The translations under genes and the position numbers were made by a program. Source: Argopecten irradians (taxonomy: Eukaryota; Mollusca; Bivalvia; Pectinida; Pectinidae). Taken from it: a stretch of DNA of 64,000 nt. Within the stretch, counting starts at the first letter, position 1; every line of letters starts with the position of its first letter. The stretch lies in the NCBI RefSeq assembly GCF_041381155.1, contig NC_091134.1, positions 3,902,001-3,966,000 of the forward strand. The letters are read 5' to 3'. Positions 24,501 through 55,838 of this stretch are shown here, piece after piece. The notes beneath the pieces were generated by a model that ran no database searches, was not told the origin of the DNA, and saw only the letters and a program-made list of their open reading frames with translations.

Positions 24501-26530
24501 AAATTTAGAAATTGGTCAATTGTTGTAACATCAATATGGATGTCTATGATTTGATACATCACAATTTGATTCAATAATGGTTACCATGGAAACACAATGG
24601 AGGAATATTTGGTTGCCATGGTCGCCAATAAGAGGTAGTGGGCTGTGATGAGGTATTAAGTAGCAACTGACTTACTTGTTTTAGCAAACATTTTCATTAT
24701 CATAAAAGATAGGAAAACAGTAGTGTATAGTCGATACATTTTTTGGTCAACAGATCTGATACTTGGTCTGTATGATGGGGTTGAAGACTTACCAAGTGTA
24801 TTCAAATGAATGACCTTGACCTCCATTCAAGGTTCAAGAGTCAATGGTATGTTAAGTCTTAAAGACCTTTCTCTACATAACCAAGGTACTTATATATTAT
24901 GGATAGAGGTACTTACATTTTAACGTTCATTAGTAATCCAGTTTTAACTCAGACCTGACCATTTTGTTTCAGAGCAGTTCCACTGTAAAGGGAGGTAATC
25001 GCTACTACCCTGTAAACAGTCACGATGCACCTAGTTCACCTACTATGTCACCGAAACACTGTTTCTTAGACTCTAACCCAGTACTTGTCGTCACGGCACC
25101 GTCACCTATTCCTACGTCTCCCTCGGACTCTCACGCCTCGATACAGTTCATTGATGAGGAAACTGACAAGGTAATCTACCTGTGTAGGAGTCATAATGTT
25201 ATAACAGTAGTCAAATACAATTATATTAACTTTAATTGATTGAGCTATTTTCTGTTTTGTAGAGTATAATTGTAAATTGGGGACTAATTTTAAATGAAGT
25301 TGCTGTTGATGTCCCTCTTAGAATTTTATTGAAAAATACTCTACAAAGTAAGGGAAGGATATTTGTTAAAGTTAATGGAAGTCAGGAGAAGAACAAAATT
25401 CAGTTCATTAATTGGTTTTGCGAAATGATAAAGTCTGAAGATAGTTTTTAGCACTATAGTAAGAGTGTTTTGATCGAAACTAGGTGTAATATTAAGTCTA
25501 AAAGACTGAACACTAAATTGTATGTCTGTTATATTTGATCTTTTTCACCACACAGGATGTTTGCCCTGAGCCTTGTCCTGCTCCTGAAGTCCCTGTGGAG
25601 ACAGAACTGCCCCCTGTTAAGGCCCCAAGCCCTATCAGTGTGGATAGTATTAGTAGCGAGGGTGAGGTTTGTAACGAGGACATGCCTCACCCGAAGGTGG
25701 CACAACCTTTCAAAACAGCACCGCCAGTGGCACCACCAATCACGACAGCACCACAAGTGGCAACACCAGCCACAGCACCACATGTGGCACCACCAGCCAC
25801 AGCACCACAAGTGGCCCCACCGGCCACAACAGCACCAAAGGTGGCTGCACCCATTTTAGCTATAGAAGCGCCCCCTGGTGTGGAGCAGGAGAAACTACTT
25901 GGTAGATCAGACAACATTAACGACAACTCCGTCAATCCAAATCAGGATGCTATGATGTCGTTTGATACATCACCGACAGATACATCCTCATCGCCTAGTG
26001 ACGTGGAAATGGTTTCTCCAGAGTTATTGTTTGTTACTGCAGGACTTACCCAATCAGATGAAAGCCTTTCTTGTTCCCATAATGCATCTTACTCCTATGG
26101 TAACCAAGTGGAGTACTCCAACTCGTTATACAACATGGAGGATGACTGTTACTATGACAATGAGGTAGACATGGACACATGTTCAACTACCCCCGATGAG
26201 GATTTAAAACAAAATGGCTCCTCAGTGGTATCAGAAGCAGGTAATATGATTTCCAATGGATTAACATCGGACGACCCTTCATCATCTCTTTCATCGCCCC
26301 CATCTTCTCCTCTGTCAGATAATACCGCACAGACCTGTCATAATAATACCCATAACAACATGGACCCTTGTGGTAACCTTATTAACATGACGTCATACCC
26401 TGACAATGTCATACGACCACAGTCTCTCACCAGCGACACAACATCAACGGAAATCACCAATAACCCCCAAATTAACTTGACGGGTAATGGTGCAGTCACT
26501 ACAGACAATCACACCTCCTGTGACACGTAG
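2962..26530 (+). CDS. Gene A: type I single-pass membrane protein, unrecognised
   Basis: Five coding exons join in frame: 2962-3520, 23769-23856, 24316-24463, 24973-25170 and 25556-26530 (stop at 26528). They give about 655 residues. Residues 1-22 are a signal peptide (basic start, then a leucine-rich core). The ectodomain to about residue 190 has four cysteines after the signal (27, 53, 76, 137) and N-glycosylation sequons at 44, 158 and 168. Residues 192-213 form one membrane segment followed by basic residues (RIRNYMKRWR), which puts the C-terminus in the cytosol. The tail begins with a PPDY motif (230-233), the PPxY type bound by WW domains such as those of NEDD4-family ligases. Further on are a Pro/Ala/Thr-rich stretch (about 384-430) and a Ser/Asn/Asp-rich C-terminus. 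I recognise no named domain. The role is probably that of a receptor or adaptor, by inference from topology only. All splice phases agree, but extra exons inside the 20-kb intron cannot be excluded. Confidence 0.75.
3853..8210. repeat. 28-bp minisatellite, about 155 copies
   Basis: The unit begins TATCATCTACTCTACAGACA and ends CGACACAG, with a common C/T variant (ACACGAC or ATACGAC). Indel-bearing units cluster at about 4230-4850, 5550-5740, 6080-6110, 6390-6720 and near 8000; the 6730-7470 stretch is very uniform. The unit has no stop in any forward frame and its length is 1 mod 3. This makes a forward open frame of more than 1,300 codons that is not a gene. Confidence 0.98.
8211..10630. repeat. 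38-bp minisatellite, about 63 copies
   Basis: The unit begins AAGCTAGAACCATGGAAGCT and continues through AGTTTGATGATCATCAGT. It contains a perfect 12-bp palindrome, TGATGATCATCA, and the palindrome CCATGG. The left edge (8211-8400) and the 9280-9480 stretch are disordered and contain pieces of the neighbouring arrays. A two-unit variant block repeats at about 10090-10310. Confidence 0.97.
10640..10731 (+). mobile_element. tRNA-derived SINE head fragment
   Basis: The sequence has a tRNA-like A box (GGTGGCCAAGGTATAG) followed about 45 bp later by a B-box-like GGGTCACGAGTTCAAAACC. It breaks off directly into the 29-bp array at its 3' side. No cloverleaf can be drawn with confidence, so this is a SINE remnant and not a tRNA gene. 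Confidence 0.5.
10732..11214. repeat. 29-bp minisatellite, about 17 copies
   Basis: The unit starts CCCATGGTACATCTGTGAAC and ends CTACATAGG. Most copies differ by one base (CTACAT or CTATAT). One copy near 11105 is shortened. The array follows directly on a SINE-like fragment. Confidence 0.97.
11215..12592. other. Intronic stretch, nothing recognisable
   Basis: AT-rich single-copy-looking DNA inside the gene A intron. I found no exon pair with consistent phase and no repeat structure. Confidence 0.5.
12593..14259. repeat. 60-bp minisatellite, about 28 copies
   Basis: The unit begins GTGAGCTTGGATACAGTCAG and runs through CGATCTTCAGTCAAAACTTA and CTGTAAATATACTGATTTTG. Because 60 is a multiple of three, short forward frames of period 20 residues appear; they begin and end with indels in the array and have no coding context. 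Degenerate pieces of the same unit recur between about 15015 and 15745. Confidence 0.97.
15975..16155 (+). mobile_element. tRNA-derived SINE with conserved-core-like middle
   Basis: The A-box-like GAGTGGCTCAGATGTCC and B-box-like GGGTCAGAAGTTTGAATTCC are followed by AGCAGTTGCCAAGTAGTGAC and GGTTGGTGGTTTTTATCCGG. The same core is found on the minus strand near 33310-33430, so this is a dispersed family. The core may be one of the deeply conserved animal SINE domains (Nin-type is my guess), which I cannot confirm. It lies within the right copy of the local duplication. Confidence 0.7.
16397..16574. mobile_element. Short TA-flanked inverted-repeat element (MITE-like)
   Basis: The left end TACCATATTCGCCC and right end GGGTTGAATACGGTA are imperfect inverses. 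Next to the ends, GGGCGCTTA and GGGGCGCTTATAGGG are present. No coding capacity is seen. The left copy of the local duplication has only a corrupted remnant here. Confidence 0.45.
16880..18260. other. Intronic stretch, nothing recognisable
   Basis: AT-rich intron sequence after the duplication. No exon, RNA gene or tandem repeat that I can support. Confidence 0.45.
18261..20260. repeat. 55-bp minisatellite, about 36 copies
   Basis: The unit begins GTCATTGGTATATTTTGTAT and contains CACAATGTCAGTACATCTAT. Variation is concentrated in the TATATG/TATGTG segment before TATCAC, where small indels occur. Another variant, CTATCTCTAATAT for CTATCTATAATAT, clusters in the last third of the array (about 19845-20240). 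Confidence 0.97.
20411..20457. repeat. Isolated 36-bp unit left of the TTAA element
   Basis: GGTTAAGGTGTCTGGTCTGG followed by a CCACCACTACCTCTCCTGGTTAA run is one diverged unit of the array that resumes at 21560. It shows that the element at 20458-21559 is inside the array's territory. Confidence 0.85.
20454..21563. mobile_element. TTAA-flanked element with long inverted repeats
   Basis: Both ends abut TTAA (20454-20457 and 21560-21563). The left terminus AGCTGACAATGCAAGTTAAA and the inverse of the right terminus, AGGTGACAATGCAAGTTAAA, differ by one base in 20. Similarity continues inward for roughly 200 bp per arm: TTTCTGAGAC, AAGGACAGGCAGTC and GCTTGGATA on the left appear inverted on the right. 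The body of about 700 bp has no transposase frame. A TTAA target site is the hallmark of piggyBac-type elements, but these ends are not the classical ones, so the superfamily is inferred. The TTAA used is the one inside the 36-bp minisatellite unit. Confidence 0.82.
21560..23194. repeat. 36-bp minisatellite, about 45 copies
   Basis: The unit is TTAAGGTGTCTGACATTCTA followed by CCACTAACTCTCCTGG. A recurrent variant replaces CTCTCCTGG by CCCTATATGG. Units decay at the right edge (23000-23194). The length is a multiple of three, so open frames of 12-residue period appear on both strands; none is a gene. Confidence 0.97.
23195..23768. other. End of the long gene A intron
   Basis: AT-rich sequence ending in the pyrimidine-rich acceptor CTGCTTTTTCTAG at 23768. 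Nothing else recognisable. Confidence 0.5.
23769..23856 (+). CDS. Gene A exon: transmembrane segment
   Basis: This 88-bp exon completes the glycine codon begun at 3520. It encodes a short linker, then QVVVIATCSAVIGTFFIVAA and VLRIR, a clean hydrophobic helix with a basic cytosolic flank. It ends AAG before GTAACC, leaving two bases of an arginine codon. Confidence 0.8.
24316..24463 (+). CDS. Gene A exon: juxtamembrane tail with PPDY motif
   Basis: The exon follows the acceptor TTTGGTCAG and ends at CAG before GTGCGA. It begins NYMKRWREQQ and carries PPDYQP, a PPxY-type motif, then a Lys/Ser/Thr-rich segment. In and out phases (2 to 0) match its neighbours. Confidence 0.8.
24973..25170 (+). 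CDS. Gene A exon: Ser/Pro-rich tail segment
   Basis: A phase-0 exon of 66 codons after TTTGTTTCAG, ending GACAAG before GTAATC. It contains several SP and TP dipeptides (SSPTMSP, APSPIPTSPS), which could be proline-directed phosphorylation sites. That reading is an inference from composition. Confidence 0.78.
25556..26530 (+). CDS. Gene A terminal exon: low-complexity cytosolic tail
   Basis: 324 codons plus a stop after the acceptor CACCACACAG. It starts DVCPEPCPAP, continues with about 47 residues of imperfect TAPxVAPPA repeats, then acidic and Ser/Asn-rich sequence (for example NMEDDCYYDNEVDMD and SSSLSSPPSSPLS). The stop is TAG at 26528. The repeat portion also gives open frames on the other strand (25529-25935), which are shadows. 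Confidence 0.85.
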   Translation, partial: DVCPEPCPAPEVPVETELPPVKAPSPISVDSISSEGEVCNEDMPHPKVAQPFKTAPPVAPPITTAPQVATPATAPHVAPPATAPQVAPPATTAPKVAAPILAIEAPPGVEQEKLLGRSDNINDNSVNPNQDAMMSFDTSPTDTSSSPSDVEMVSPELLFVTAGLTQSDESLSCSHNASYSYGNQVEYSNSLYNMEDDCYYDNEVDMDTCSTTPDEDLKQNGSSVVSEAGNMISNGLTSDDPSSSLSSPPSSPLSDNTAQTCHNNTHNNMDPCGNLINMTSYPDNVIRPQSLTSDTTSTEITNNPQINLTGNGAVTTDNHTSCDT

Positions 26531-34750: not shown

Positions 34751-37700
34751 TTAAGCTTCTTGTATACCTGCAAAACATATTTACATAAAAAGTCTTAAAA
34801 GGTACCACACACCATATACATTCTTCAGAATCATTGAATTCCATTTATATTCTAGAGAACTGAAAAATACTGAATTCCTTTCATTCAATGAACAATTATA
34901 AGTAGAGTTTCAAATTCATATTCAACAAATTCCAATTAAAACGGTTAAAAATACCAACTTCATTAAAAGTGGGTTTTAAATTAAATGATTTTTTTCAGCA
35001 AAAGTATGACTGACTACAAGGATAACACATCTTGTGTCGTACAGCCTCTTTTTATTTAACAAAAAAAACCCTTTATCTTGTTTTTCTCTTTTAGAAAGGT
35101 GAAGACGGTGTCATTAATAATATGAACAGATTAATTTGGGATAGAATTAAGTGAAGACAGGTTTGGACAATGAAAATAATTCAAGTACTATGTGATACCC
35201 AAAAACGTTTGTGATGGACTATTGTTTCTATTGGTGATGGACGTAAAAAGATGATATCCCACGCTAATGTCATTTCAGCGGGGAGATTACAAGGAGTGAC
35301 GTTCCATCACCATTGGAGATACTAGTCCAGCAAAAACATTATCAGGTATGTTTCACATGGTATGTAAATTAATCCCATTAATTATGATTTAAAACAGAAT
35401 GTAAATCACTAAACGAGATAAGGAATCCATTCTACATTAAGGTTAAGTATCTTTTACTGAGATAGAGTCAGTGATTTTCGTACGCAATAATTCAAAGGTC
35501 TGTACGTATATATCTTTTCAATTGGGAAAAAACTACATTGCATCTTCCTTGAAACATATATATTTTAGAGCGTTTTTCCTTATATGGGAAAAAATTTACA
35601 CAATATCATTAAAATAAGCAAAATTTCTCCAGGGAAAGGGTCCTTATTCGGTCCAAAATATACCTAAATCACCGAGAGTTCAGTAAAGTCAGTTTTGAAA
35701 GTTCCACAAAATATAGCTGAGGTAATTAAGGAATCCAGTTATCCACTCTAGGTTGAGGATAAGTGCCTTTATCTGAGATAGAGATCAGTAAATTTAGATT
35801 GGAAAAAAATCACTTTAAATAGGTGAAACGTACATAACAAAACAGATTTGATAGGACACTCAAAGTAAATTGTTTGTGTCAGCACACAAAGATTTAGTGA
35901 ATTCCTTTGAGCATGATTGAAGTTAAAGTAGAATCAGTGTGTGTTAAGTCCTTTTTAGATTAAGACTAGAAGTCATCCACAACAATTGAGTCTGGTTTCA
36001 ACTGGTCTGACCAAACCTAGAGGCCAGCTTGATTTGAATTCTTTTCAGAAATCTTCCCCAAAAATTGTTCAGCTCATATACTAAGAATCTACTTTCCAGA
36101 AGCAGAACAGCTAGACATCAAGTGACTAGATATTGTATTTTAGAAGTAAAGGCCATTAAATCCAGTCTTCAGGTTAGTATCTCACAATATGAAAGTGCAT
36201 TTAACAGGTTAAATTTACATCGACTATTTAATGTTGTACAGATTGATTTTGTACAACCCACTATAATGCTACAACGTATACAGGTCTTACTCAAAGGTTG
36301 CCAGTGTTCAATGCTACAAATAAAAGAATGATATTTATACACTAAAACACATCAGCAATTTAACAATTCCTATATTTTGAATATAACAAGAGTTATCTCC
36401 ACTTGCAGGAAGTTTTTAGTACAGATGACAGGTCTGTAATTTTATGATTTCTCTCCCCTCTCCAATGTAATACCTTACCTGGGGCATTCTGCTGTAGAAT
36501 TGGCTCGTGCTCTTCGTCAGTAGCCATCGTCTGACGTTTACACGGCAGATGTTTTATTATTGTTGGTACCAGTATGTTGTAATACAGGCACATACCGGAT
36601 ATCAACAGCACAAACCCGAGCACTTGTAAAGGTATAAAGTCCTGCCAGGTGAGCCCGAGCGTGACGGCCCAGATAGACAAAGTCCGGACACTGTCCAACA
36701 CCATCCGGGTGGTGGCACTCTGGGACTTAGTAATGCTGATCCCAGCAAAGTTAAAAAACGCAATACTGACAATGTTCCCTGTGGGATAAAAATGATATGT
36801 TAACTAGTATTAACTAACAAGTATCAGCAATAACAAGAATTAGTTGTCATTAAAGGACTGACACCTACAGGTACATGTCATATGGCTACAAATATCTGTA
36901 GTGCCATACTAAACTTACATGTGAAAGGACCAAGTGGAACATGAACATCTATCTCTACAAATAAGAGTAGTTGCCACAGCTATCTGCCAGTTGTGATGTT
37001 TAGGTACCTACAACTGCCGTAACTATTTGACAGTGGTTGCTGACAGTGACGTTTATGTACCTATAACTGCCATATCTATCTGACAGTGGTTGCTGACAGT
37101 GACGTTTACGTACCTACAACTGCCGCAGCTATCTGCCAGTTGTTGCTGATCTGCCTGAAAGCGTCTAGCGGGTCCTCCAGTCTATGACTTGGTAGTTTAC
37201 TGAATACCTGGGCGTGTATATAGTAAAAGGGCACCAGTAATATCCCTAGGATGATGAACCCCCACAAACCTGAAAAGAGAAGGGATGAAAACTTACACTG
37301 AAAAGACAGTAGCCATAATAATAGGTTTTTGATAATATAGTTGACAAAATTTGCTGAAAGACTCTGGTTGATATTTGATTTCATTGGGCAGTATGTAAAC
37401 AAGTTTTTTTTTTAAATATTCCCTCCAATTTCTCTCGCCTAAAACATTTAATTTACATATTATAACTTGATTATTCATTTTTACTTCATTTTTTTTAAAA
37501 GAACAAACTCCATGCCAACTCTTCATGCCAGCAAGCTACAGGCCTTATATGAGTACCCTGGGCCTTTCAGTTATTGAGAAGAATTTGTTTGACTAAAAAG
37601 TTTACACATGATGAGCGGCGGATGGCATGCTGACAATAAGTCATTCTGACCCGCCGAGTCAGATAACCTAAACGGAAAGGAAAATATGAGGAAGAAAATG

Positions 37701-40700
37701 AGTTATAGAAAAAACCTGCATTGTAACTAACCTTCATACCCTACGGCTAGTAATGGACTAACCCTGTATCTGGCTACAAACTTCTCCTCATAAACCATCT
37801 GTACAGACACAATTATCTGGGCCATGATAATAAGTAAATCTCCTGAAAAACAAATTAACTTGTTAAAACGGTGGTCATGCATATAGTGTTATTCAAGTAC
37901 ATACCATTCCTAAACATTTAGATGTAATCCATATAGTTCAATCTCAGGATTTACCAATAGCTAATCTCAGGATTTACCCATAGTTAATCTCAGGATTTAC
38001 CCATAGTTAATCTCAGGATTTACCCATAGATAATCTCAGGATTTACCCATAGTTAATCTCAGGATTTACCCATAGATAATCTCAGGATTTACCCATAGAT
38101 AATCTCAGGATTTACCCATAGATAATCTCAGGATTTACCCATAGTTAATCTCAGAATTTGCCCATAGATAATCTCAGGATTTACCCATAGTTATTCTTGG
38201 GATTTACCCATAATTAATCTCAAGATTTACCCATAGATAATCTTAGGATTTACCCATAGATAATCTCATGATTTACCCATAGCTAATCTCAGGATTTACC
38301 CATAGATAATCTCAAGATTTACCCATAGATAATCTCAGGATTTACCCATAGATAATCTCAAGATTTACCCATAGTTAATCTCAGGATTTACCCATAGATA
38401 ATCTCAGGATTTACCCATAGATAATCTCAGGATTTACCCATAGATAATCTCAAGATTTACCCATAGATAATCTCAAGATTTACCCATAGATAATCTCAAG
38501 ATTTACCCATAGATAATCTCAGGATTTACCCATAGATAATCTCAAGATTTACCCATAGATAATCTCAGGATTTACCCATAGATAATCTCAGGATTTACCC
38601 ATAGATAATCTCAGGATTTACCCATAGATAATCTCAGGATTTACCCATAGTTAATCTCAGGATTTACCCATAGATAATCTCAGGATTTACCCATAGTTAA
38701 TCTTAGGATTTACCCATAGTTCAATCTCAGGATTTACCCATAGATAATCTCAGGATTTACCCATAGTTAATCTCAGGATTTACCCATAGCTAATCTCAGG
38801 ATTTACCCATAGATAATCTCAGGATTTACCCATAGTTAATCTCAGGATTTACCCATAGATAATCTCAGGATTTACCCATAGATAATCTCAGGATTTACCC
38901 ATAGATAATCTCAGGATTTACCCATAGATAATCTCAAGATTTACCCATAGATAATCTCAGGATTTACCCATAGCTAATCTCAGGATTTACCCATAGATAA
39001 TCTCAAGATTTACCCATAGATAATCTCAGGATTTACCCATAGATAATCTCAGGATTTACCATAGATAATCTCAGGATTTACCCATAGTTCAATCTCAGAT
39101 TTACCCATAGATAATCTCAGGATTTACCCATAGATAATCTCAAGATTTACCCATAGTTAATCTCAGGATTTACCCATAGATAATCTCAGGATTTACCCAT
39201 AGATAATCTCAGGATTTACCCATAGATAATCTCAAGATTTACCCATAGATAATCTCAAGATTTACCCATAGATAATCTCAAGATTTACCCATAGATAATC
39301 TCAGGATTTACCCATAGATAATCTCAGGATTTACCCATAGATAATCTCAGGATTTACCCATAGATAATCTCAAGATTTACCCATAGATAATCTCAAGATT
39401 TACCCATAGATAATCTCAGGATTTACCCATAGATAATCTCAGGATTTACCCATAGATAATCTCAGAATTTACCCATAGATAACCTCAGTATTTACTCGAA
39501 GCTAATCTCAGAATTTACCCATAGATAATCTCAAGGTTTACCCATAGCTAATCTCAGTATTTATTCAAAGCTAATCTCAGAATTCAACCATAGCTAAATT
39601 ACCCATTGCTAATCTCAGAATTTACCCATTGCTAATCTCAGAATTTACTCATAGCTTATCTCAGAATTTACCATAAACTAATCTCAAAATTTACTCATAG
39701 CTGATCTCATGGCTGATCTCATGATAGCTAAATATATACATAACTTTGATTTATTCATAGCTAACCTCAGATTTTACCAAAATCTAATCTCAGAATTTAC
39801 CCATTAAATATGTCCACAATCAACAATGCTTACAACATTAAAAATACTCCTGTACTGTATTCAGAGGTCTGATGAATGACTGCCTGCAGTGGTTACAGAA
39901 AAGTCACAAACATTTACCCCTCTAACCTGTAGGCTAGATTAAAAGATTACTGTTCATCTACATTTCCTGGTTTCTATAAGGAAGGGGTATTTTGACATAT
40001 TGATAAACGGATCATGTTTCCTAAAGATTAGCTAAGATAGAGCTAAGGTAATTACATCATTATGGTTACTCCTATATATCATTTTGTATCTATGTAGAGA
40101 ATACACACAAGACCTTACCTGCTATAATTCCATTGATATCTTTGGATTTGTCATCACCAAACACAACATCGGAGACCCCGACGACACCCAAACCTAAAAT
40201 AACGGTGATCATTCCAACCCACATCCTGGCTTTGATGTTTTGTCCTAGGAATGCCACTGACAATAATGCCGTAAATATAATCACAGCACCTGGAATACAC
40301 AAGTAGTGAAATACATTGACAGAAGACAAATCATGGTTGTCAAATTAAACCTATAGATAACAAGAGATCAGAGTGGGATTCAAAACTCAGGACCACCAAA
40401 CACTATAGCTCCATTGAATTACATGCTCCCTGTCTAATACTGCTACACTAGCAATAAGGTAATCAGTAATAGTGCTTAAGTCAACCATCTTCACCTAGTC
40501 AGCATCAATTTGATCCCTGGTAGGACCTGAAAAGGTCAGGGGTCATCAGCCCAATTATGTGGGTTTCCTTCCACTCTACCACATGCTTACATCCAGGCAA
40601 TCTAATTGTGATATCACTCTGGGACAAGCTTACATCCAGGCAATCAAAAGTGATATCACTCTGGGACAAGCTTACATCCAGGCAATCAAAAGTGATATCA

Positions 40701-43700
40701 CTCTGGGACAAGCTTACATCCAGGCAATCAAAAGTGATATCACTCTGGGACAAGCTTACATCCGGGCAATCAAAAGTGATATCACTCTGGGACAAGCTTA
40801 CATCCAGGCAATCAAAAGTGATATCACTCTGGGACAAGCTTACATCCAGGCAATCAATGTGATATCACTCTGGGACAAGCTTACATCCGGCAATCAAAAG
40901 TGATATCACTCTGGAGCTAATCCAGCAAAAGTCATCTCACTCTGGGACAAGCTTACATCCGGGCAATCAATGTGATATCACTCAATACTACCGCTACATT
41001 ATGCTAATCCGCAATCAAAATGATTTCACTCTACGCGCTGACGCAATTGTAAGCTGGCTGACATCAGGCAATCAAAAGTGATTTCATTTACTCTATGACG
41101 TGCTTAATCCAGGCTCAAAAATGATTTCACTTACAATCCACGCAATGAAAAGTGATTTCACTCTACAATGTCTACATCCAGCAACAAAATGATTTCACTC
41201 TACTTACATCCAGGCAATCAAATAAGATTTCACTATATGACATGCTTACATCCAGGCAATCAAAAGTGATTTCACTCTATGACGTGCTTAGATCCAGGCA
41301 ATCAAAAGTTATTTCACTCTATGACATGCTTACATCCAGGCAATCAAAAGTTATTTCACTCTATGACATGCTTACATCCAGGCAATCAAAAGTTATTTCA
41401 CTCTATGACGTGCTTAGATCCAGGCAATCAAAAGTTATTTCACTCTATGACGTGCTTACATCCAGGCAATCAAAAGTTATTTCACTCTATGACGTGCTTA
41501 CATCCAGGCAATCAAAAGTTATTTCACTCTATGACGTGCTTACATCCAGGCAATCCAATGTGATTTGAAGAAGTTATATAATCGATGTAAAGTAAAATGT
41601 TTATACTACAGCAATTGGCAGAGTTTAGGAGACAGTTAAACGAGGCATTCGAACCTTTAACAGCTGATTGAGATTTCAAAGATAGTTTTACACTTTTTCT
41701 ATAATCACCTCAGTCAATCAACTGAAATTGCCAAGGCCATTAATGTGACTGTAAACATTTATTTTTAATATGTCAATATCATGGAAATTGTCCATGTAAA
41801 AAATGTAAAAATACCATTTGTCAGCGGTGGAGCATCTTTAGGTAAAATGGAAACTGGTATCATATCTATCATAGACCCAGTTGCCATAGTCACCAATTGC
41901 CCACTAGCTTTTTTGCGTCGTCAATGAATGCTGAGACAGCTTCATGATCCCATGTCTGTAAGCTGCAATTTCATTGGCATACGAAGAGGTCATCTGATAA
42001 TGACCTTTAGTAGTACAGTATCAGCATAGAATAGAGTGTTGGAATCTGATAAATTATATCTAGTGAAAATAGATAAAAGAAATCAGAATATGCCTCACCT
42101 CTGAGCATCTGGAAACTTGAGGCGTAAGTCAGAGTAAGGCCCACATACATCAGAGAGGTCCCACACATATCACAGATAGCTGGTGGGGCGAAGACCAAGG
42201 GGTTAACCCAACGGCTTCCATACTCTCGATCACCCTGGCTGCGCTTCCTTAACAGTACTATACCATACGCTACAAGGCAAGTCATCTCACCCAGGAACAT
42301 ACCAACAGCCTGAAAAATATAGGTCAAGTTCAGTCATCTCACCCAGGAACATACCAACAGTCTGAAAAATATAGGTCAAGGTCAGTCATCTCACCCAGAA
42401 ACATACTAACAGTCTGAAAAATATAGGTCAAGGTCAGTCATCTCACCCAGGAACATACCAACAGTCTGAAAAATATAGGTCAAGGTCAGTCATCTCACCC
42501 AGAAACATACCAACAGTCTGAAAAATATAGGTCAAGGTCAGTCATCTCACCCAGGAACATACCAACAGTCTGAAAAATATAGGTCAAGGTCAGTCATCTC
42601 ACGCAGAAACATACTAACAGTCTGAAAAATATAGGTCAAGGTCAGTCATCTTACCCAGAAGCATACCAACAGTCTGAAAAATATAGGTCAAGGTCAGTCA
42701 TCTCACGCAGAAACATACTAACAGTCTGAAAAATATAGGTCAAGGTCAGTCATCTTACCCAGAAGCATACCAACAGTCTGAAAAATGTAGGTCAAGGTCA
42801 GTCGTCTCACCCAGGAACATACCAACAGTCTGAAAAATATAGGTCAAGGTCAGTCATCTCACCCAGGAACATACCAACAGTCTGAAAAATATAGGTCAAG
42901 GTCAGTCATCTTACCCAGAAACATACATATATATACTGACAACCTGAAAATATAGGTCAAGGTCAGTCATCTCACCCAGGAACATACCAACAGTCTGAAA
43001 AATATAGGTCAAGGTCAGTCATCTTACCCAGAAACATACATATATACATATATATACTGACAACCTGAAAATATAGGTCAAGGTCAGTCATCTCACCCAG
43101 GAACATAACAACAGCTTGAAAAATATAGGTCAAGCACATGGCTCTGCCGTCATTTCGGTTTGTTTTTTGATGGCAGAACACAGTAGATAACTAGATTTGG
43201 AAATTTATGAAAATAAATCACATGCCATAGAAATCTAAATATAATCATTTAACTGTAAAAAATAAATTATTTAAATTCAATCTTAACAACATTTGCAATT
43301 GCAATCTGATAATTAAATTATTTCTTTTATTTATCAATTTCCATCTGCAAAATAATATTCAAAATAATATTTATTATAAAGGGAGATAATTCAAATTTTG
43401 TTTTCATTGAAAAATAATTACATTTTACAGTATTTTGTTTTCCAAAAAAATCTTATTTGGCGAAAAAATCTCATTTTGGTGCAAATTTTGGCAACAGATT
43501 TTCAAAATAGGTCAAGGTCAGTCATCTCACCAAGGAACATACCAAACAGCCTGCAAAATATATGTCAAGGTCAGTCAACTGGTATCAGTCTGATACCTAT
43601 ATGACATGATAATATGATATAGAGAGAACAACAATACTGGATTTGGATTTCTGGTCCAGCATCTCATTTAATTCCCAAAAATCCAAAAGAGCATAACATA

Positions 43701-46700
43701 TATAGCTTAATGTACATGTACATGTGTGTTGGGACGAAATGTAGATTTTAGTTGATGTATAGCAGGTGGAGAAAATACATTACAACAGGAGAAAGGGAGA
43801 TCGTTCATATTTTTTTTTATTTTAAAATAACTTGTCACCAGAATATGACCTCTAATAGAATGGTGGCAGATCCTCTATAAAATAGAGTAACAATAAGGAT
43901 CTGTATTTTAATCAGTTTGAAGACTATAAGATCAGTACTACAGTATGATAATGCTGCATTCCTTGTATCCAATAAAAAAAAACACAAAAAAATTAAAAAT
44001 AAAGTTAATCTTTACCTGAAAGAATGGATGGTCAAATGAATGTTCAGGGTCATCAGGATTTCCAACAGCCTTCTGTCTATCGGCCCATCTGTAAAGTAAT
44101 CAAATTATCTGTTAGATCTGTATTACAATATGTGGGTGGCAATAGATACTAAAATGACATTTATCCTGCAAATGCCCCACATACTGACCGATAACTACTG
44201 CCAGATAAATTTATGCTTTATTCGTCCATACGAAATGCTTTATCTATCAATACGATCACATGAATTTTTTCCACATCTGACAGAACTTTTTCTAAATTGA
44301 CCAAGAACTTGAACCTTCCAATGAATGAAAAGTCATTCTTTCCTGCTAAAAAGTGATGTCACATTCACCAGAATGACATAATTTTTACAATATCGAAAAT
44401 CTCATATGACAGAGTCACGTTTTTCTTGGCTCATTGCAAAGGTATGTATTGTAAAGAAGTTCCTTATGTGTAATTATTGTTTCTTTTGAGTATTTTTATT
44501 GTGTTTCAGTGACATTACACACTGAATAGAGTTACTGGTACTGTTTGTGAATGCACGTCTATATTTCCCAAGGTAGTAGAAAGGAGTACACTCTAATTCG
44601 ATTTATTGAATGAATATTTTCTTCCACATCAAAGAATGTGTCTTGCTTCGAGCGAAACCTAGTAAATAACTAGCAGTTTGCTTTCGTTTTAAAAGTCATA
44701 ATGTTTGCAGCTATATATGAGGCACTGTGTCAGGCAGTGATTCAATTTATATAAAATCATATGCACCATAACATTGGTGCCCAAGAAGGGTTCAGGAATA
44801 GTACAATGTACTGTACAATTCTTGCAAATGAATCATTGTGACCCTTGGAAACTTGAAAACAAGTTATTTTGAGGAGGGGAGTATACATCTAGATGTACAT
44901 ATACATTCAACAATTGTAAGGTGGCTTTGTTTTTAGCCAAAGGACACGAAGTAATGTTTCATTAGTGTCTAGTTGTGATATACCTATTATATTTTTGGGG
45001 TAAGAGAGTATGCAGCCTAGCCGCAGAATAAATCTCAGCTATAGCTAGAGAACCTTAACAATATATCTCAATTTAGACTAAAGTAAACCAGAGACCCTGA
45101 GTTCCATCCCTAGCAGAACATTATACAGCAAGATCAATTGATATTTATCATATGGTACACATAACGAGTGTCATATTTAAATCATAATAAAGTAAAATAC
45201 TCTTATAACGAATACACTTACAACAAATTTGTGGTTATAACATAGTATTTTAATTCCCCAGCAAGTTTATTTTAGGATATCATATGTATATAACAAACTA
45301 TGCTTATAACGAAGTAATTTTGCTGGTCCCCTGAGGTTCGTTATAACCATGTTTTACTGTATTATTGAGAAAACCAAATTAAAGTGGGACCTAACAGATA
45401 ATTCTGAATGTCTATTTTTATCTGGAATCTACTGACATAACTGATGCATATGATTTACCTGAGAGCTCCTAGCTTAGCCCGAGAGACTCTGGCCCTGACA
45501 CCAGACTTAGGCATTATGATAGATAGATGTCTGGTGTAGAGACTCTGGCCCTGACACTAGACTTAGGCATTATGACAGATAGATGTCTGGTGTAGAGACT
45601 CTGGCCCTGACACCAGACTTAGGCATTATGATAGATAGATGTCTGGTGTAGCGACTCTGGCCCTGATACCAGACTTAGACATTATGAGAGGTCTGGTGTC
45701 AGGGCTAGAGTCTCTCGGCCTAATACTAAATGATATTTTTTACTAAATTTTTAATTAAATCTTATATCAATTATATGTGTATGTATTGTAGGTACAAATG
45801 TAGTAGTCACCCTTTGATGTAGAGGGGTCATAATAAAGGCATCTGCAGACAAAGGAAAATTTTGATGTTCATTTACATGTACTTACTACTATTCTAATAT
45901 AACATTCAAAACTGAGATTGTGTTATAAAAAGGACAAAGTCACAATAATATTCCATCTGTTCTTGTTCCTGGTTACAACTGGTTATAAGACCAACTGTTT
46001 TTATAATTTTTTGAAACATCCCGCTTCTTTCACTGACTATATATGATACGTTGTAGAACCCGTTTCCAGTTTTAACACAACAGTAAATAAAATACTGATA
46101 AATATTATTTGTCATCATATACTGTACACTGTAATTTTTTTTTTTTTTTTTCGTACGTATTGTATCAAGGACATATATGAGAAGGATAAGTCACACCAGG
46201 TTTTGGGGAAATACAAGGCAGGAGCTTTTGTGTTTGGGCACTGACCATAACGTTGAGGGACGACTGATTTTCCTTTGATATCCGCCGGCGCAGCCTTTGA
46301 TGTACTAGCTTGCGGGTGTGAGGGTTAACGTCTTACTTTCTGAAGCGGGCCGTCATTTCATGAGCTGTCATATTTTTTTAACACAAATTTAAGACATATC
46401 CTCTACATATGCCATTCTTAAAGCAAGTAATAAACGTCGTGAAATTTAATAAACTTTACATTGGTGTTTCTTTTTACTCGATAAGACAAGTATTTGTTGA
46501 GAAAAATGGTTTTTATTCTTGGCTCATAGGCGTTTCGCGTGGTGTTTAGTAATGTAAAGAGGTCACGAATCCTTCTCACTTATAAATCCTTGATTGTATA
46601 TATAGACTATCCAAAATGTCTAACGTTAAGCTTAATTTGATTGCTTCTTGGGATATGTATTGGTATATTGTACTTATTGGTATATTACACTGTAGGCCTA

Positions 46701-47081
46701 TGATGCTTGCGTCATGTGACTGGGTCTAAAAATCACTGACACTGGGGTAGTTTTCGTTTCTTCGGAACAACCGGTTTGACCGTTTGTTAAAGTCATTATT
46801 TCAACTATAAATCCTGACGGACCTGCATTTTCTGAAAGCAATAAAAAATCATCAGGTCCGTCTTTAATTAATAAACGAACAACTAGGTCCAACCAGTCAA
46901 ACCGCATAATCGAAAACGGCCTAGGCCTACTGTATTTAACGTCACATGTCAATCAGCTGTAAATGACTGAATGCAGACGCTAGGCCTAGCTAACTCTCAC
47001 TTACTTGGTTGATAGCGTGTTGATAGAACCTGTCACAACCATCAAAATGGCAATGAGAATCACACTGACAGGCCAAGCCAT
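34751..47081 (-). CDS. SLC35F6: SLC35F6 (TANGO9 / ANT2-binding protein) orthologue
   Basis: Eight coding exons on the minus strand join with matching phases: 47081-47005, 44088-44016, 42309-42099, 40289-40119, 37842-37732, 37269-37114, 36778-36479 and 34767-34751. Together they encode 371 residues, the length I recall for human SLC35F6. Diagnostic stretches shared with the human protein as I remember it include TGSINTLS, KWAD, QAVGMFLGE, CDMCGTSLMYV, SSFQMLRGAVIIF, VAFLG, EEKFV, SIAFFNFAGIS and SATTRMVLDS. The family is the drug/metabolite transporter (EamA-like) fold with about ten helices. In vertebrates SLC35F6 is found in lysosomes and mitochondria and is reported to bind ANT2; its substrate is unknown. 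The C-terminus has EHEPIL, where human has an acidic dileucine signal. The start ATG follows GAC, a good context. Introns 1-4 carry large minisatellites. Confidence 0.95.
34768..36478 (-). other. SLC35F6 intron 7
   Basis: The intron runs from donor GTAAGG (36478) to an acceptor ending TTTTGCAG (34768). A local imperfect repeat, AAGGAATCCA...CTGAGATAGAG, occurs near 35420 and 35728. Reading through the donor instead would add about 28 unrelated residues; splicing to the last exon gives GIQEA and a stop, close to the length of the human C-terminus. Confidence 0.6.
37937..39806. repeat. 23-bp minisatellite in SLC35F6 intron 4, about 81 copies
   Basis: The unit begins TAATCTCAGGATTTACCCAT and ends AGA. 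The main variants are CAGG or CAAG, and ATAGAT or ATAGTT. Copies at 39480-39806 are increasingly degenerate. It lies between exons 4 and 5, about 95 bp from the exon 5 acceptor. Confidence 0.97.
40378..40460 (-). mobile_element. tRNA-derived SINE head fragment
   Basis: On the minus strand, a head with GGAGCATGTAATTCAATGG is followed by GGTCCTGAGTTTTGAATCCC, spaced like A and B boxes. It is in SLC35F6 intron 3. No complete cloverleaf. Confidence 0.45.
40583..41567. repeat. 42-bp minisatellite in SLC35F6 intron 3, about 23 copies
   Basis: Two subfamilies share CTTACATCCAGGCAATCAAA. The left block (40583-40990) continues AGTGATATCACTCTGGGACA, and the right block (41200-41567) continues AGTTATTTCACTCTATGAC. 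The stretch between them (about 40910-41200) is scrambled. Short open frames on both strands are repeat by-products. Confidence 0.96.
41808..41838. mobile_element. Solo terminus of MITE family 1
   Basis: ATACCATTTGTCAGCGGTGG followed by AGCATCTTTA is the inverse of the left end of the family-1 elements. No partner end is nearby, so it is a truncated copy in intron 3. Confidence 0.7.
42284..43135. repeat. 52-bp minisatellite built from the intron 2/exon 3 boundary
   Basis: The unit GAAAAATATAGGTCAAGGTC, AGTCATCTCACCCAGGAACA, TACCAACAGTCT is a copy of the exon 3 acceptor plus the first 27 or so coding bases of SLC35F6. The founding copy spans the real acceptor at 42310. About 15 further copies follow in intron 2, nearly all keeping TTTTTCAG on the minus strand. 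A diverged stray copy is at 43505-43590. Confidence 0.95.
43136..44015. other. Rest of SLC35F6 intron 2
   Basis: AT-rich intron. It contains a stray, diverged copy of the 52-bp unit (43505-43590) and a GGGAGATAATTC motif at about 43381. Nothing else is recognisable. Confidence 0.5.
44089..45187. other. SLC35F6 intron 1, exon-2-proximal part
   Basis: No structure that I can support in this AT-rich stretch. Confidence 0.45.
45188..45361. mobile_element. TA-flanked MITE with TTATAACGAA inverted ends
   Basis: The left end AAGTAAAATACTCTTATAACGAA-type sequence and the inverse of the right end (CAGTAAAACATGGTTATAAC) are similar, and both are flanked by TA. The 170-bp element has no coding capacity. 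A third internal TTATAACGAAG suggests subterminal repeats. Confidence 0.6.
45476..45720. repeat. 56-bp minisatellite bounded by an inverted copy
   Basis: About four copies of a unit beginning GAGACTCTGGCCCTGACACC. Within each unit CACCAGAC and GTCTGGTG are inverse. The array begins CCGAGAGACTCTGGCCCTGA and ends with the inverse, GTCTGGTGTCAGGGC then GAGTCTCTCGG, so the whole array is enclosed by a roughly 28-bp inverted repeat. It lies in SLC35F6 intron 1. Confidence 0.9.
45721..46685. other. SLC35F6 intron 1, middle part
   Basis: AT-rich, with a run of about 17 T at 46136. I see no gene or repeat. Confidence 0.45.
46686..46945. repeat. Fold-back sequence in SLC35F6 intron 1
   Basis: GACGGACCTG and CAGGTCCGTC are a perfect 10-bp inverse around a short loop. 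Farther out, GGTTTGACCG and CCAGTCAAACC are near inverses, and CTGTAGGCCTA and TAGGCCTACTGTA outermost. This is probably a hairpin MITE. The 84-codon frame across it is not a gene. Confidence 0.5.
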
Positions 47082-50026: not shown

Positions 50027-53000
50027 AATGGTTACGGTCAATGGGGGCCATGCTGGTCAGGCCATAGACATCCTGGTGACAATCTATTGGGGTCATGCTG
50101 GTCAGGCCAAAGCCATCATGGTGAAGGTCAATGGGCATCATGCTAGTCAGGCTATAACCATCCTGGTGACGGTCAATGGGGGCCATGCTGGTCAGGCAGA
50201 CATCCTGGTGACGGTCAATGGGGGCCATGCTGGTCAGGCCAGACATCCCGGTGACGGTCAATGGGGGCCATGCTGGTCAGGCCAAACATCCTGGTGAAGG
50301 TCAATGGGGGCCATGCTGGTCAGGCCAAACATCCTGGTGAAGGTCAATGGGGCTATGCTGGTCAGGCCAGACATCATGATGAATGTCAATGGGGCCATGC
50401 TGGTCAGGCCAGACATCATGATGAAGGTCAATGGGCGCCATGCTGGTCGGGCCAGACATCCTGGTGAAGGTCAATGGGGGCCATGCTGGTCGGGCCAGAC
50501 ATCCTGGTGAAGCTCAATGGGAGCCATGCTGGTCAAATCTTAGAAATCATGGTGAAGATCAATAGGGCCCTGCTGGTCAGGCAATAGATATCCTGCTGAA
50601 GGATAATGGCTGCCATGGTGGTCAGCCACACATCCTGCTGAGGGTCAATGTTGGCGCTACTGGGCAGGCCATAGACATCCTGTTGAAGGTCAATGTTGGC
50701 GCTGCTGGGCAGGCCATAGACATCCTTGTGAAGGTCAATAGAGGCCGTTCTGGTCAGGCCCTAGACATCCTGGTGAAAGTCAATGGAGGCCATGCTGATC
50801 AGGCCATATACATCATGGTGACGGACAATGTGGGCCGTGCTAGTCAGGCGATACACATTCTGGTGAAGGTCAATTAGGGCCATGCTGGTCAGGCCAGACA
50901 TCCTGGCGACGGTCAATGGGGGTCATGCTAGTCAGGCTATAACCATCCTGGTGAAGGTCAATGGGGGTCATGCTGGTCAGGCCAGACATCCTGGTGACGG
51001 TCAATGGGGGCCATGCTGGTCAGGCCAGACATCCTGGTGAAGGTCAATGGGGCCATGCTGGTCAGGCCAGACATCCTGGTGACGGTCAATGGGGGCCATG
51101 CTGGTCAGGCCAAACATCCTGGTGAAGGTCAATGGGGGCCATGCTGGTCAGGGTAAACATCCTGGTGAAGGTCAATGGGGGCCATGCTGGTCAGGCCATA
51201 CACATTCTGGTGAAGGTCAATTAGGGCCATGCTGGTCAGGCCAGACATCCTGGCGACGGTCAATGGGGGTCATGCTGGTCAGGCCAGACATCCTGGTGAC
51301 GGTCAATGGGGGCCATGCTGGTCAGGCCAGACATCCTGGTGAAGGTCAATGGGGCCATGTTGGTCAGGCCAGACATCCTGGTGACGGTCAATGGGGGCCA
51401 TGCTGGTCAGGCCAAACATCCTGGTGAAGGTCAATGGGGGCCATGCTGGTCAGGCCAAACATCCTGGTGAAGGTCAATGGGGGCCATGCTGGTCAGGCCA
51501 GACATCCTGGTGACGGTCAATGGGGGCCATGCTGGCCAGGCCAAACATCCTGGTGAATGTCAATGGGGCTATGCTGGTCAGGCCAGACATCATGATGAAT
51601 GTCAATGGGGCCATGCTGGTCAGGCCAGACATCATGATGAAGGTCAATGGGCGCCATGCTGGTCGGGCCAGACATCCTGGTGAAGGTCAATGGGGGCCAT
51701 GCTGGTCGGGCCAGACATCCTGGTGAAGCTCAATGGGAGCCATGCTGGTCAAATCTTAGAAATCATGGTGAAGATCAATGGGGCCCTGCTGGTCAGGCAA
51801 TAAATATCCTGCTGAAGGTCAATGGCTGCCATGGTGGTCAGCCACACATCCTGCTGAGGGTCAATGTTGGCGCTGCTGGGCAGGCCATAGACATCCTGGT
51901 GAAGGTCAATGTTGGCGCTGCTGGGCAGGCCATAGACATCCTTGTGAAGGTCAATAGAGGCCGTTCTGGTTAGGCCCTAGACATCCTGGTGAAAGTCAAT
52001 GGAGGCCATGCTGATCAGGCCATATACATCATGGTGACGGTCAATGTGGGCCATGCTAGTCAGGCCATACACATTCTGGTGAAGGTCAATTAGGGCCATG
52101 CTGGTCAGGCCAGACATCCTGGCGACGGTCAATGGGGGTCATGCTGGTCAGTCTGTAGACATCACGATGAAGGTCAATGGGCGCCATGCTGGTCGGGCCA
52201 GACATCCTGGTGAAGGTCAATGGGGGCCATGCTGGTCGGGCCAGACATCCTGGTGAAGCTCAATGGGAGCCATGCTGGTCAAATCTTAGAAATCATGGTG
52301 AAGATCAATGGGGCCCTGCTGGTCAGGCTATAGACATCCTGGTGAATGTCAATGTGCGCCCTGCTGGTCAGGCCATAGACATCCTGATGAAGGTCATTGG
52401 TGGCCATGCTGATCAGGTTATAGACATCCTTGTAAAGGTTAATAGGGGCCTTGCTGGTCTGGATATAGACATCCTTGTGAAGGTTAATGGGGGCCATGCT
52501 GCTCAGGCCATAGACATCCTGGTGAAGGTCAATGAGGCCCTGCTGGTCAGGCAATAGATATCCTGCTGAAGGATAATGGCTGCCATGGTGGTCAGCCACA
52601 CATCCTGCTGAGGGTCAATGTTGGTGCTGCTGGGCACAGCCATAGACATCCTGGTGAAGGTCAATGTTGGCGTTGCTGGGCAGGCCATAGACATCTTGGT
52701 GAAGGTCAATGTGCGCCCTGCTGGTCAGGCTATAGACATCCTGGTGAATGTCAATGTGCGCCCTGCTGGTCAGGCCATAGACATCCTGATGAAGGTCATT
52801 GGTGGCCATGCTGATCAGGTTATAGACATCCTTGTAAAGGTTAATAGGGGCCTTGCTGGTCTGGATATAGACATCCTGGTGAAGGTTAATGGGGGCCATG
52901 CTGCTCAGGCCATAGACATCCTGGTGAAGGTCAATGGGGCCCTGCTGGTCAGGCAATAGATATCCTGCTGAAGGATAATGGCTGCCATGGTGGTCAGCCA

Positions 53001-55838
53001 CACATCCTGCTGAGGGTCAATGTTGGTGCTGCTGGGCACAGCCATAGACATCCTGGTGAAGGTCAATGTTGGCGTTGCTGGGCAGGCCATAGACATCTTG
53101 GTGAAGGTCAACGGGGGCCCTGCTGGTCAGATTATAGACATCCTGGTGAATGTCAATGTGCGCCCTGCTGGTCAGGCCATAGACATCCTGATGAAGGTCA
53201 ATTGGGGCCCTGCTGGTCAGGTCATAGACATCCTGGTGAATGTCAATGTGCGCCCTGCTGGTCAGGCCATAGACATCCTGGTGAAGGTCAATTGAGGCCC
53301 TGCTGGTCAGGCCATTGACATCCTGGTGAAGGTCAATTGGGGCCCTGCTGATCAGGCTATAGACATCCTGGTGAATGTCAATGTGCGCCCTGCTGGTCAG
53401 GTCATAGACATCCTGGTGAAGGTCAATGGGGGCCCTGCTGGTCAGGCCATAGACATCCTGGTGAAGGTCAATGTTGGCCCTGCTGGTCAGGCTATAGACA
53501 TCCTGGTGAATGTCAATGTGCGCCCTGCTGGTCAGGCTATAGACATCCTGATGAAGGTCATTGGTGGCCATGCTGATCAGGTTATAGACATCCTTGTAAA
53601 GGTTAATAGGGGCCTTGCTGGTCTGGATATAGACATCCTGGTGAAGGTTAATGGGGGCCATGCTGCTCAGGCCATAGACATCCTGGTGAAGGTCAATGAG
53701 GCCCTGCTGGTCAGGCAATAGATATCCTGCTGAAGGATAATGGCTGCCATGGTGGTCAGCCACACATCCTGCTGAGGGTCAATGTTGGTGCTGCTGGGCA
53801 CAGCCATAGACATCCTGGTGAAGGTCAATGTTGGCGCTGCTGGGCAGGCCATAGACATCTTGGTGAAGGTCAACGGGGGCCCTGCTGGTCAGATTATAGA
53901 CATCCTGGTGAATGTCAATTTGCGCCCTGCTGGTCAGGCCCTAGCCATCCTGATGAAGGTCAATTGGGGCCCTGCTGGTCAGGTCATAGACATCCTGGTG
54001 AATGTCAATGTACGCCCTGCTGGTCAGGCCATAGACATCCTGGTGAAGGTCAATTGAGGCCCTGCTGGTCAGGCCATTGACATCCTGGTGAAGGTCAATT
54101 GGGGCCCTGCTGATCAGGCCATAGACATCCTGGTGAAGGCCAATGTTGGCGCTGCTGGGCAGGCTATATACATCCTGGTGAAGGTCAATGTGCGCCCTGC
54201 TGGTCAGGCTATAGACATCCTGGTGAATGTCAATGTGCGCCCGCTGGTCAGGCCATAGACATCCTGATGAAGGTCATTGGTGGCCATGCTGATCAGGTTA
54301 TAGACATCCTTGTAAAGGTTAATAAGGGCCTTGCTGGTCTGGATATAGACATCCTGGTGAAGGTTAATGGGGGCTATGCTGGTCAAGCCATAGACATCCT
54401 GGTGAAGGTCAATGAAGGCCATGCTGGTCAAGCCATAGACATCCTGGTGATGGTCAATGTGTGCCATGCTTGTCAGGCCATTGACATCATGGTGAAGGTC
54501 AATTGAGGCCATGCTAGTCAGGCCATGGACATCCTAATGAAGGTCAATACGGGAGATGCTGGTAAGGCCATAGATATCCTTGTTAAGGTCAATGGAGGCC
54601 ATGCTGGTCAGGCCATTGACATCCTGGTGAAGGTCAATGGGGGCCATGCTGCTCAGGCCAGACATCCTGGTGAAGGTCAATGGGGGCCATGCTGCTCAGG
54701 CCATAGACATCCTGGTAGAGGTCGATGTGGAACCTGCTGGACAGGCCATAGACATCCTGGCGAAGGTCAATGGGGGCCATGCTGGTCAAGCCATAGACAT
54801 CCTGGTGAAGGTCAATGGGGGCCATGCTTGTCAGGCCATGGACATCCTAATGAAGGTCAATACGGGAGATGCTGGTAAGGCCATAGATATCCTTGTTAAG
54901 GTCAATGGCGGCCATGCTGGTCAGGCCATTGACATCCTGGTGAAGGTCAATGGGGGCCATGCTGCTCAGGCCAGACATCCTGGTGAAGGTCAATGGGGCG
55001 ATGCTGGTCAGGCCATAGACATCATGGTGAAGGTCAATGGAGGCCATGCTGCTCAGGCCATTGACATCCTGGTGAAGGTCAATGGAGGCCATGCTACTCA
55101 GGCCAGACATCCTGGTGAAGGTCAATGTGGGCCATGCTGGTCAGGCCATAGACATCATGGTGAAGGTCAATGGAGGCCATGCTGGTCAGGCCATAGACAT
55201 CCTGGTGAAGGTCAATGGGGGCCATGCTGCTCAGGCCAGACATCCTGGTGAAGGTCAATGGGGGCCATGCTGGTCAGGCCATAGACATCCTGGTGAAGGT
55301 CAATGTGGGCCATGCTGGTCAGGCCAGACATCCTGGTGAAGGTCAATGGGGGCCATGCTGGTCAGGCCATAGACATCCTGGTGAAGGTCAATGCTGCTCA
55401 GGCCATAGACATCCTGGTAGAGGTCGATGTGGAACCTGCTGGTCAGGCCATAGACATCCTGGCGAAGGTCAATGGGGGCCATGCTGGTCAAGCCATAGAC
55501 ATCCTGGTGAAGGTCAATGGGGGCCATGCTGGTCAGGCTATTGACATCATGGCAAAGGTCAATGGGGGCCATGCTGCTCAGGCCAGATATCCTGGTGAAG
55601 GTCAATGGGGGCCATGCTGGTCAGGCTATTGACATCATGGCAAAGGTCAATGGGGGCCATGCTGCTCAGGCCAGACATCCTGGTGAAGGTCAATGTGGGC
55701 CATGCTGGTCAGGCTATTGACATCCTGGTGAAGGTCAATGTGGGCCATGCTGGTCAGGCCATAGACATCCTGGTGAAGGTCAATGGGGGCCATGCTGCTC
55801 AGGCCAGACATCCTGGTGAGGGTCAATGGGGACCAGTT
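50027..55838. repeat. 5.8-kb array of 43/45-bp units, about 130 copies
   Basis: The unit is ATAGACATCCTGGTGAAGGT, CAATGGGGGCCATGCTGGTC, AGGCC. A 43-bp form lacks AT before AGACATCC. Blocks of several distinct units recur as higher-order repeats: the marker TGCCATGGTGGTCAGCC is at about 50611, 51827, 52581, 52983 and 53745, and GTCAAATCTTAGAAATC at about 50532, 51745 and 52277. The 45-bp form has no stop in one frame on each strand, so open frames up to 248 codons arise. None has coding context. Confidence 0.97.

Follow-up and report, generated by a model that had tools for sequence, protein, structure and literature searches.

Minisatellite-like tandem duplications of an intron-exon boundary, termed mirages, have been described in amphioxus in Adh3, the globins BflGb6 and BflGb9, troponin C and PGBD5. 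They can lie at a 5' or a 3' boundary, and the AG or GT is kept in many of their copies though not in every one. They are reported to leave splicing undisturbed, which for the globins is backed by RT-PCR (PMC3087553, PMC3902484). Tandem duplication of AG/GT-bearing sequence is also discussed as a route of intron gain (PMC4974935), and the Rogers model of intron gain by such duplication is cited in PMC3087553. In the bay scallop Argopecten irradians, the arrays at the exon 3 acceptor and the exon 6 donor of an SLC35F6-like gene are mirages and as such a known kind of structure; what they add is their occurrence twice in one gene and a sign that such arrays are common in the scallop. As in amphioxus, the scallop unit holds intron end plus exon start (exon 3) or exon end plus intron start (exon 6), and the exon 3 decoys keep the AG in 16 of 16 copies and a strong donor-like site in 13 of 16. 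In contrast to the cephalochordate cases, the host is a mollusc and one gene carries two mirages. Unit copies number up to about 26 in the scallop, with one or two in other cases, versus the 6 and 3 given for the BflGb6 haplotypes, and whereas the amphioxus globin mirages are backed by RT-PCR, the scallop arrays are described from genome sequence.

The minisatellite of IFI6 (6-16), which to go by the title of a 1995 paper reportedly provides multiple splice donors in the transcript, likewise supplies tandem splice sites. Unlike those donors, the scallop copies are acceptors with donor-like sites, predicted from the DNA letters. The scallop duplication resembles the intron-gain model in that a segment with splice signals was duplicated in tandem, but its copies sit in an intron that was already there, with no sign of a new one. 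Among the papers listed in a search by title and start of abstract, with most subscription papers outside its reach, no mollusc paper reported boundary minisatellites.

The SLC35F6-like gene lies on the minus strand of the window, by which we mean the whole 64,000-nucleotide stretch analyzed. A human SLC35F6 sequence served as the guide for the gene model. The seven exons read align to this guide and join in frame, with the protein read to 366 residues:

47005..47081, minus strand: exon 1, coding part (in-frame gene model)
44016..44088, minus strand: exon 2, donor GTAAAG after 44016 (in-frame gene model)
42099..42309, minus strand: exon 3, true acceptor AG ends 42310, donor begins 42098 (gene model and guide alignment)
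40119..40289, minus strand: exon 4 (in-frame gene model; weak Pfam matches)
37732..37842, minus strand: exon 5 (in-frame gene model)
37114..37269, minus strand: exon 6, true donor begins 37113 (in-frame gene model)
36479..36778, minus strand: exon 7, part read (in-frame gene model)

The preliminary description of this DNA had named the gene SLC35F6, and the alignment to the human guide bears the name out. In a Pfam scan of four exon ORFs, exon 4 alone produced matches (EamA, TPT, Nuc_sug_transp and SLC35F), all of them under the curated cut-offs, and the gene name therefore rests mainly on the guide alignment. Ten other ORFs of the window gave nothing above the curated cut-offs, so the boundary count took in no further window gene. 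The junction of exons 2 and 3 (44088-44016 to 42309-42099) is in frame and reads ..HPFFQ, then AVGMFLGE.. after the join, which agrees with the acceptor position proposed earlier.

This acceptor is the exon-proximal member of a tandem array:

42273..43134, minus strand: 52-bp minisatellite of the intron 2/exon 3 boundary, 15 decoys plus the true acceptor (TRF; AG positions)

TRF reported a repeat of 52 bp x 14.6 at 42273-43039 with 91% matches, and also a period of 156 at 42273-43134; the proximal end of the array falls within exon 3. The proposal that the array is a tandem copy of the exon 3 boundary was upheld by a boundary test, in which the best copy of the acceptor (+/-30 bases) in the flanking intron scored 110 and none of 200 shuffles of the intron scored above 29. 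The AGs of the contiguous decoys end at 43115, 43065, 42995, 42944, 42882, 42830, 42778, 42726, 42674, 42622, 42570, 42518, 42466, 42414 and 42362, and 11 of the 15 intervals between AGs of the contiguous array are exactly 52 bases. The preliminary description had counted about 15 upstream copies that keep the AG; there are 15 contiguous ones and, in addition, an outlying copy at 43551 that it did not list, all 16 with the AG intact.

The regular 52-bp unit consists of CTGAC and TTGAC, both possible branch points by consensus, followed by a T-rich tract, CAG and about 30 exon-3-like bases. In the closest units the identity to exon 3 after the AG runs for 30 bases except at +1, somewhat longer than the 27 or so first estimated. 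The base after the AG is A in 12 of the 16 decoys, G in three (43551, 43065 and 42944) and C in 43115. The previously noted difference between real and decoy copies just after the AG thus stands as the usual pattern, G in the true unit versus A, but it is not absolute; the true unit also has CTGAA where most decoys have CTGAC. Regular units have a donor-like GTGAGA 19 nt past the AG, and the true exon 3 carries one at the same distance, with a donor score of 7.2. In 13 of 16 decoys a donor-like site scoring at least 7 follows the AG by no more than 30 nt. The candidate donor attributed to the copies is present in most, the exceptions being 43065, which has GGGTAAG about 37 nt past the AG, and 42726 and 42622, where a C precedes the GT and the donor score is 2.8. 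The micro-exon that such pairs could form would be 19 nt long (AG to GTGAGA), or 7 nt if it ran to GTATGT, and not about 26 bp as had been suggested.

Variant units recur as sets within the array, a sign of multi-unit duplication. By eye, copies 43551, 43115 and 43065 look the most divergent and central variants recur in blocks. Of the window's 17 TCAAGGTCA motifs, 14 lie inside the 42273-43135 array in the form AGGTCAAGGTCA; the motif, which we take to be a nuclear-receptor extended half site, comes with the repeat unit.

Two further features lie distal to the array in the same intron:

43504..43580, minus strand: outlying boundary copy in intron 2 (genome search, 91% identity; AG ends 43551)
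43135..43503, no strand assigned: dispersed-repeat-like stretch of about 370 bases between the array and the outlying copy

The outlying copy has GCTG after its AG, as in the true exon. Within the intervening stretch, 43182-43314 has many genome copies at about 76% (40 of 284 candidates scored); one locus aligns with 43133-43393, another with 43326-43507, and most copies end inside these limits. The stretch is possibly an insertion that split the array, and the outlying copy likely represents the old distal edge of an array that would once have reached 43580. At the left edge of the outlying copy the intron reads TTGACTGACC, and the exon edge reads GATGACTTGCC. TGACT is common to both, and this shared sequence, of five bases only, may have seeded the first duplication.

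The same gene carries a second array of this kind, at a donor:

36993..37149, minus strand: second boundary minisatellite, 53 bp x 3, spanning the donor of exon 6 (TRF; boundary test)

Here the end of the exon is copied together with its donor, which places decoy donors at 37060 and 37007 with scores of 3.9 and 3.6 versus 7.7 for the true donor; use of either decoy leads to a predicted stop at residue 268. The boundary test gave 79 at this donor against a control maximum of 25. Of the 12 boundaries tested in this gene, a set that stops short of the exon 7 donor, the exon 3 acceptor and the exon 6 donor rose above the shuffles and the other 10 did not.

The arrangement at exon 3 sets the spliceosome a choice among near-copies. 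On a simple acceptor score, built from untrained base frequencies, the true site reached 6.3, 15 decoys fell between 4.5 and 5.6, and one decoy scored 0.7. Since these scores barely separate the true site from the decoys, the choice must rest on position or on unseen elements, and the likeliest guide is position, in that an acceptor has to pair with the genuine donor of exon 3. We propose near-exclusive use of the exon-proximal acceptor, most likely because it is the one that has this donor as its partner, at a distance of 211 nt. The 19-nt exon of a regular decoy, bounded by its own GTGAGA, would be too short to be defined, and the next acceptor lies 33 nt further on. The spliceosome would have to pass all of the decoy copies. 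Exon 3 extended from any decoy runs into a computed premature stop at residue 57-80 (16 of 16), and products spliced at decoys, carrying these stops, would presumably be degraded.

We interpret the exon 3 array as a mirage-type minisatellite, the outcome of boundary-blind tandem duplication that is tolerated because the exon-proximal copy keeps the exon intact, and we give this reading a probability of roughly 0.8. A segment running from the last part of intron 2 into the first part of exon 3 would have been duplicated in tandem, perhaps at the shared TGACT, and the array would then have grown by unequal exchange or slippage. After a tandem duplication across a boundary, the copy nearest the exon always retains the splice site together with the whole exon, and for this reason the duplication can be neutral whatever the number of intron decoys. 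The residues AVGMFLGE at the start of exon 3 are the same in human SLC35F6, which makes the exon the older element and the array a derivative of it.

Other exon boundaries of the scallop genome were surveyed at 55 loci, comprising 30 of 82 Myosin_head matches and 25 of 25 ABC_tran matches and including some recent paralogs. Of the 110 boundary slots, 57 were definable by a simple splice score and the 53 undefined slots were left out. A boundary was scored as positive if a copy spanning the splice site occurred within the next 1.4 kb of flank, and the SLC35F6 cases stand outside the count because that gene was chosen for its array. Spanning copies were found at 5 of the 57 definable boundaries (95% interval 2.9 to 19.3%, from a small sample of two families), namely the acceptors of L039, L056 and L061 and the donors of L057 and L070. 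The same five were positive at every threshold tried, among 43 to 67 non-redundant boundaries, and shuffled queries produced no spanning copy in 1880 trials. A first, looser survey had found exon-edge copies at 7 of the 55 loci, five of which pass the stricter spanning rule.

Among 550 random positions in the flanks, 45 had a spanning copy, contributed by 11 of the 55 loci; among mid-exon positions the count was 0 of 55. Boundaries did not differ from flank (Fisher p 0.80), and the comparison with mid-exon gave p 0.057; these significance tests are rough because the flank controls, 10 per locus, are not independent and were searched toward the exon, whereas boundaries were searched away from it. 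Locus L053 was rejected as a boundary array, its repeat sitting in the intron after GTAAGG and its donor slot being undefined under the spanning rule. At L045 (C2:23208853-23209032 plus flanks) a myosin exon donor is followed by several short repeats with AAAAGTAAGTAGATTG or similar (GTAAGT copies); it missed the spanning-score rule and is likely a further boundary array. Small as it is, the survey suggests that boundary arrays are common in the scallop genome.

Individual cases range from long arrays to single copies. At L070 (C5:4815065-4815196 plus flanks), an ABC transporter exon donor is repeated with the last ~40 coding bases as 58 bp x 26.5; the 24 matches to GGGTTTG followed directly by GTA[A/C]GTTTC include the true donor, and all 23 decoy donors lead to stops. 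At L061 (C5:36365841-36366026 plus flanks, reverse complement), a myosin exon has an upstream 60-bp x 26 array that copies its acceptor and runs to the end of the stretch examined. The true acceptor appears to be at 1512, judging from the myosin motif and splice signals. Of the 23 decoy acceptors that match the motif, ten would extend the exon in frame and without a stop, adding 20-residue hydrophobic repeats, so decoys are not always dead ends, and the L061 array might conceivably be a coding one.

At L056, a striated-muscle myosin acceptor, the boundary is copied once upstream, and splicing to the AG of that copy would add 86 nt to the exon. This exon is identical at 52 of 52 residues to chain 2os8_A, and it begins at chain residue 114 in 2os8_A, 1b7t_A, 1kk7_A, 1qvi_A and 3i5f_A, the last of which we take to be a squid chain, and at 109 and 110 in the shorter chains 1dfk_A and 1dfl_A. 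The agreement in start numbering at residue 114 speaks against an insertion in the mature protein at the join, and this indirect protein evidence suggests in turn that the true acceptor is used at L056. The muscle myosin exon parts at L036 (107 residues) and L041 (101 residues) are identical at 208 of 208 positions to 1dfk_A and 1dfl_A, presumably Argopecten irradians myosin chains.

It is conceivable that the exon 3 array is functional, its decoys and 19-nt micro-exons serving as a regulated sink by which nonsense-mediated decay would reduce SLC35F6 output. Such a sink would fit the AG kept in every decoy, the strong donor-like sites that 13 of 16 carry at no more than 30 nt, and the stops in all 16 decoy-extended exons. 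However, recent tandem copies retain such signals without selection, both exon 6 decoy donors are weaker than the true donor, and arrays in unrelated genes at about the random-flank rate (5/57 versus 45/550) suggest no special recruitment. We consider a regulated sink unlikely. Less probable still is an assembly artefact in which copies were invented or multiplied: tandem-array copy numbers are often wrong and one assembly is the source, but the units differ from one another in ordered ways and the same design is found in two-copy cases and long arrays at other genes.

Recursive splicing, with the decoys serving as intermediate acceptor-donor pairs for the stepwise removal of intron 2, is slightly less credible again. 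Most units do offer an acceptor, a short exon and a donor-like site. Against this, AG abutting GT directly (zero length) occurs in just 2 of 17 copies, with a donor score of 0.7 in place of the strong GT expected after the AG, intron 2 is only ~1.7 kb long, and the introns between consecutive regular decoys would be 33 nt. The least plausible account, which the preliminary description had named as its possible refutation, is an unrelated dispersed repeat inserted at the exon with a chance likeness to exon 3: the adjoining 43135-43503 does resemble dispersed repeats, but the exon part of the unit encodes residues shared by human SLC35F6, and a search of the 845.8-Mb genome (very common words skipped) matched the unit nowhere else than in the outlying copy of the same intron, so that the copies at unrelated sites typical of introners or dispersed elements were not found.

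Drafts of A. i. irradians and A. i. concentricus are given as 835.7 and 874.82 Mb, with TRF repeats at 15.10% and 15.53% (PMC7090048). Boundary arrays are a pitfall for anyone predicting genes in this species. The 19 TRF arrays listed in the window cover 24,351 of the 64,000 bases. A very large minisatellite (45 bp x 131.5, TRF) occupies 50029-55835; as far as 52000, where the frame listing stops, both strands carry open frames that overlap. At 25517-26527, a 337-residue open frame contains a 27-30 bp tandem repeat (25697-25845) and has no Pfam match.

The usual way to learn how splice sites of nearly equal strength are ranked is to construct minigenes. Boundary arrays are a natural test of splice-site choice among near-identical copies, combining one true site with one to more than 20 near-copies, at acceptors and donors alike, in conserved genes. 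If they are frequent, proximity and exon definition could be weighed against sequence strength across the genome, and models that derive new introns and exons from mirages could be tested beyond amphioxus. A bolder reading, to which we give somewhat less than an even chance, is that several percent of all scallop exon boundaries lie inside minisatellites of themselves, at a rate near that of random intron positions. If that is true, splice boundaries would have no special protection from tandem duplication, the spliceosome would routinely pick by position alone among up to dozens of near-identical copies, and in-frame arrays such as that of L061, with its 60-bp unit, could feed new coding repeats.
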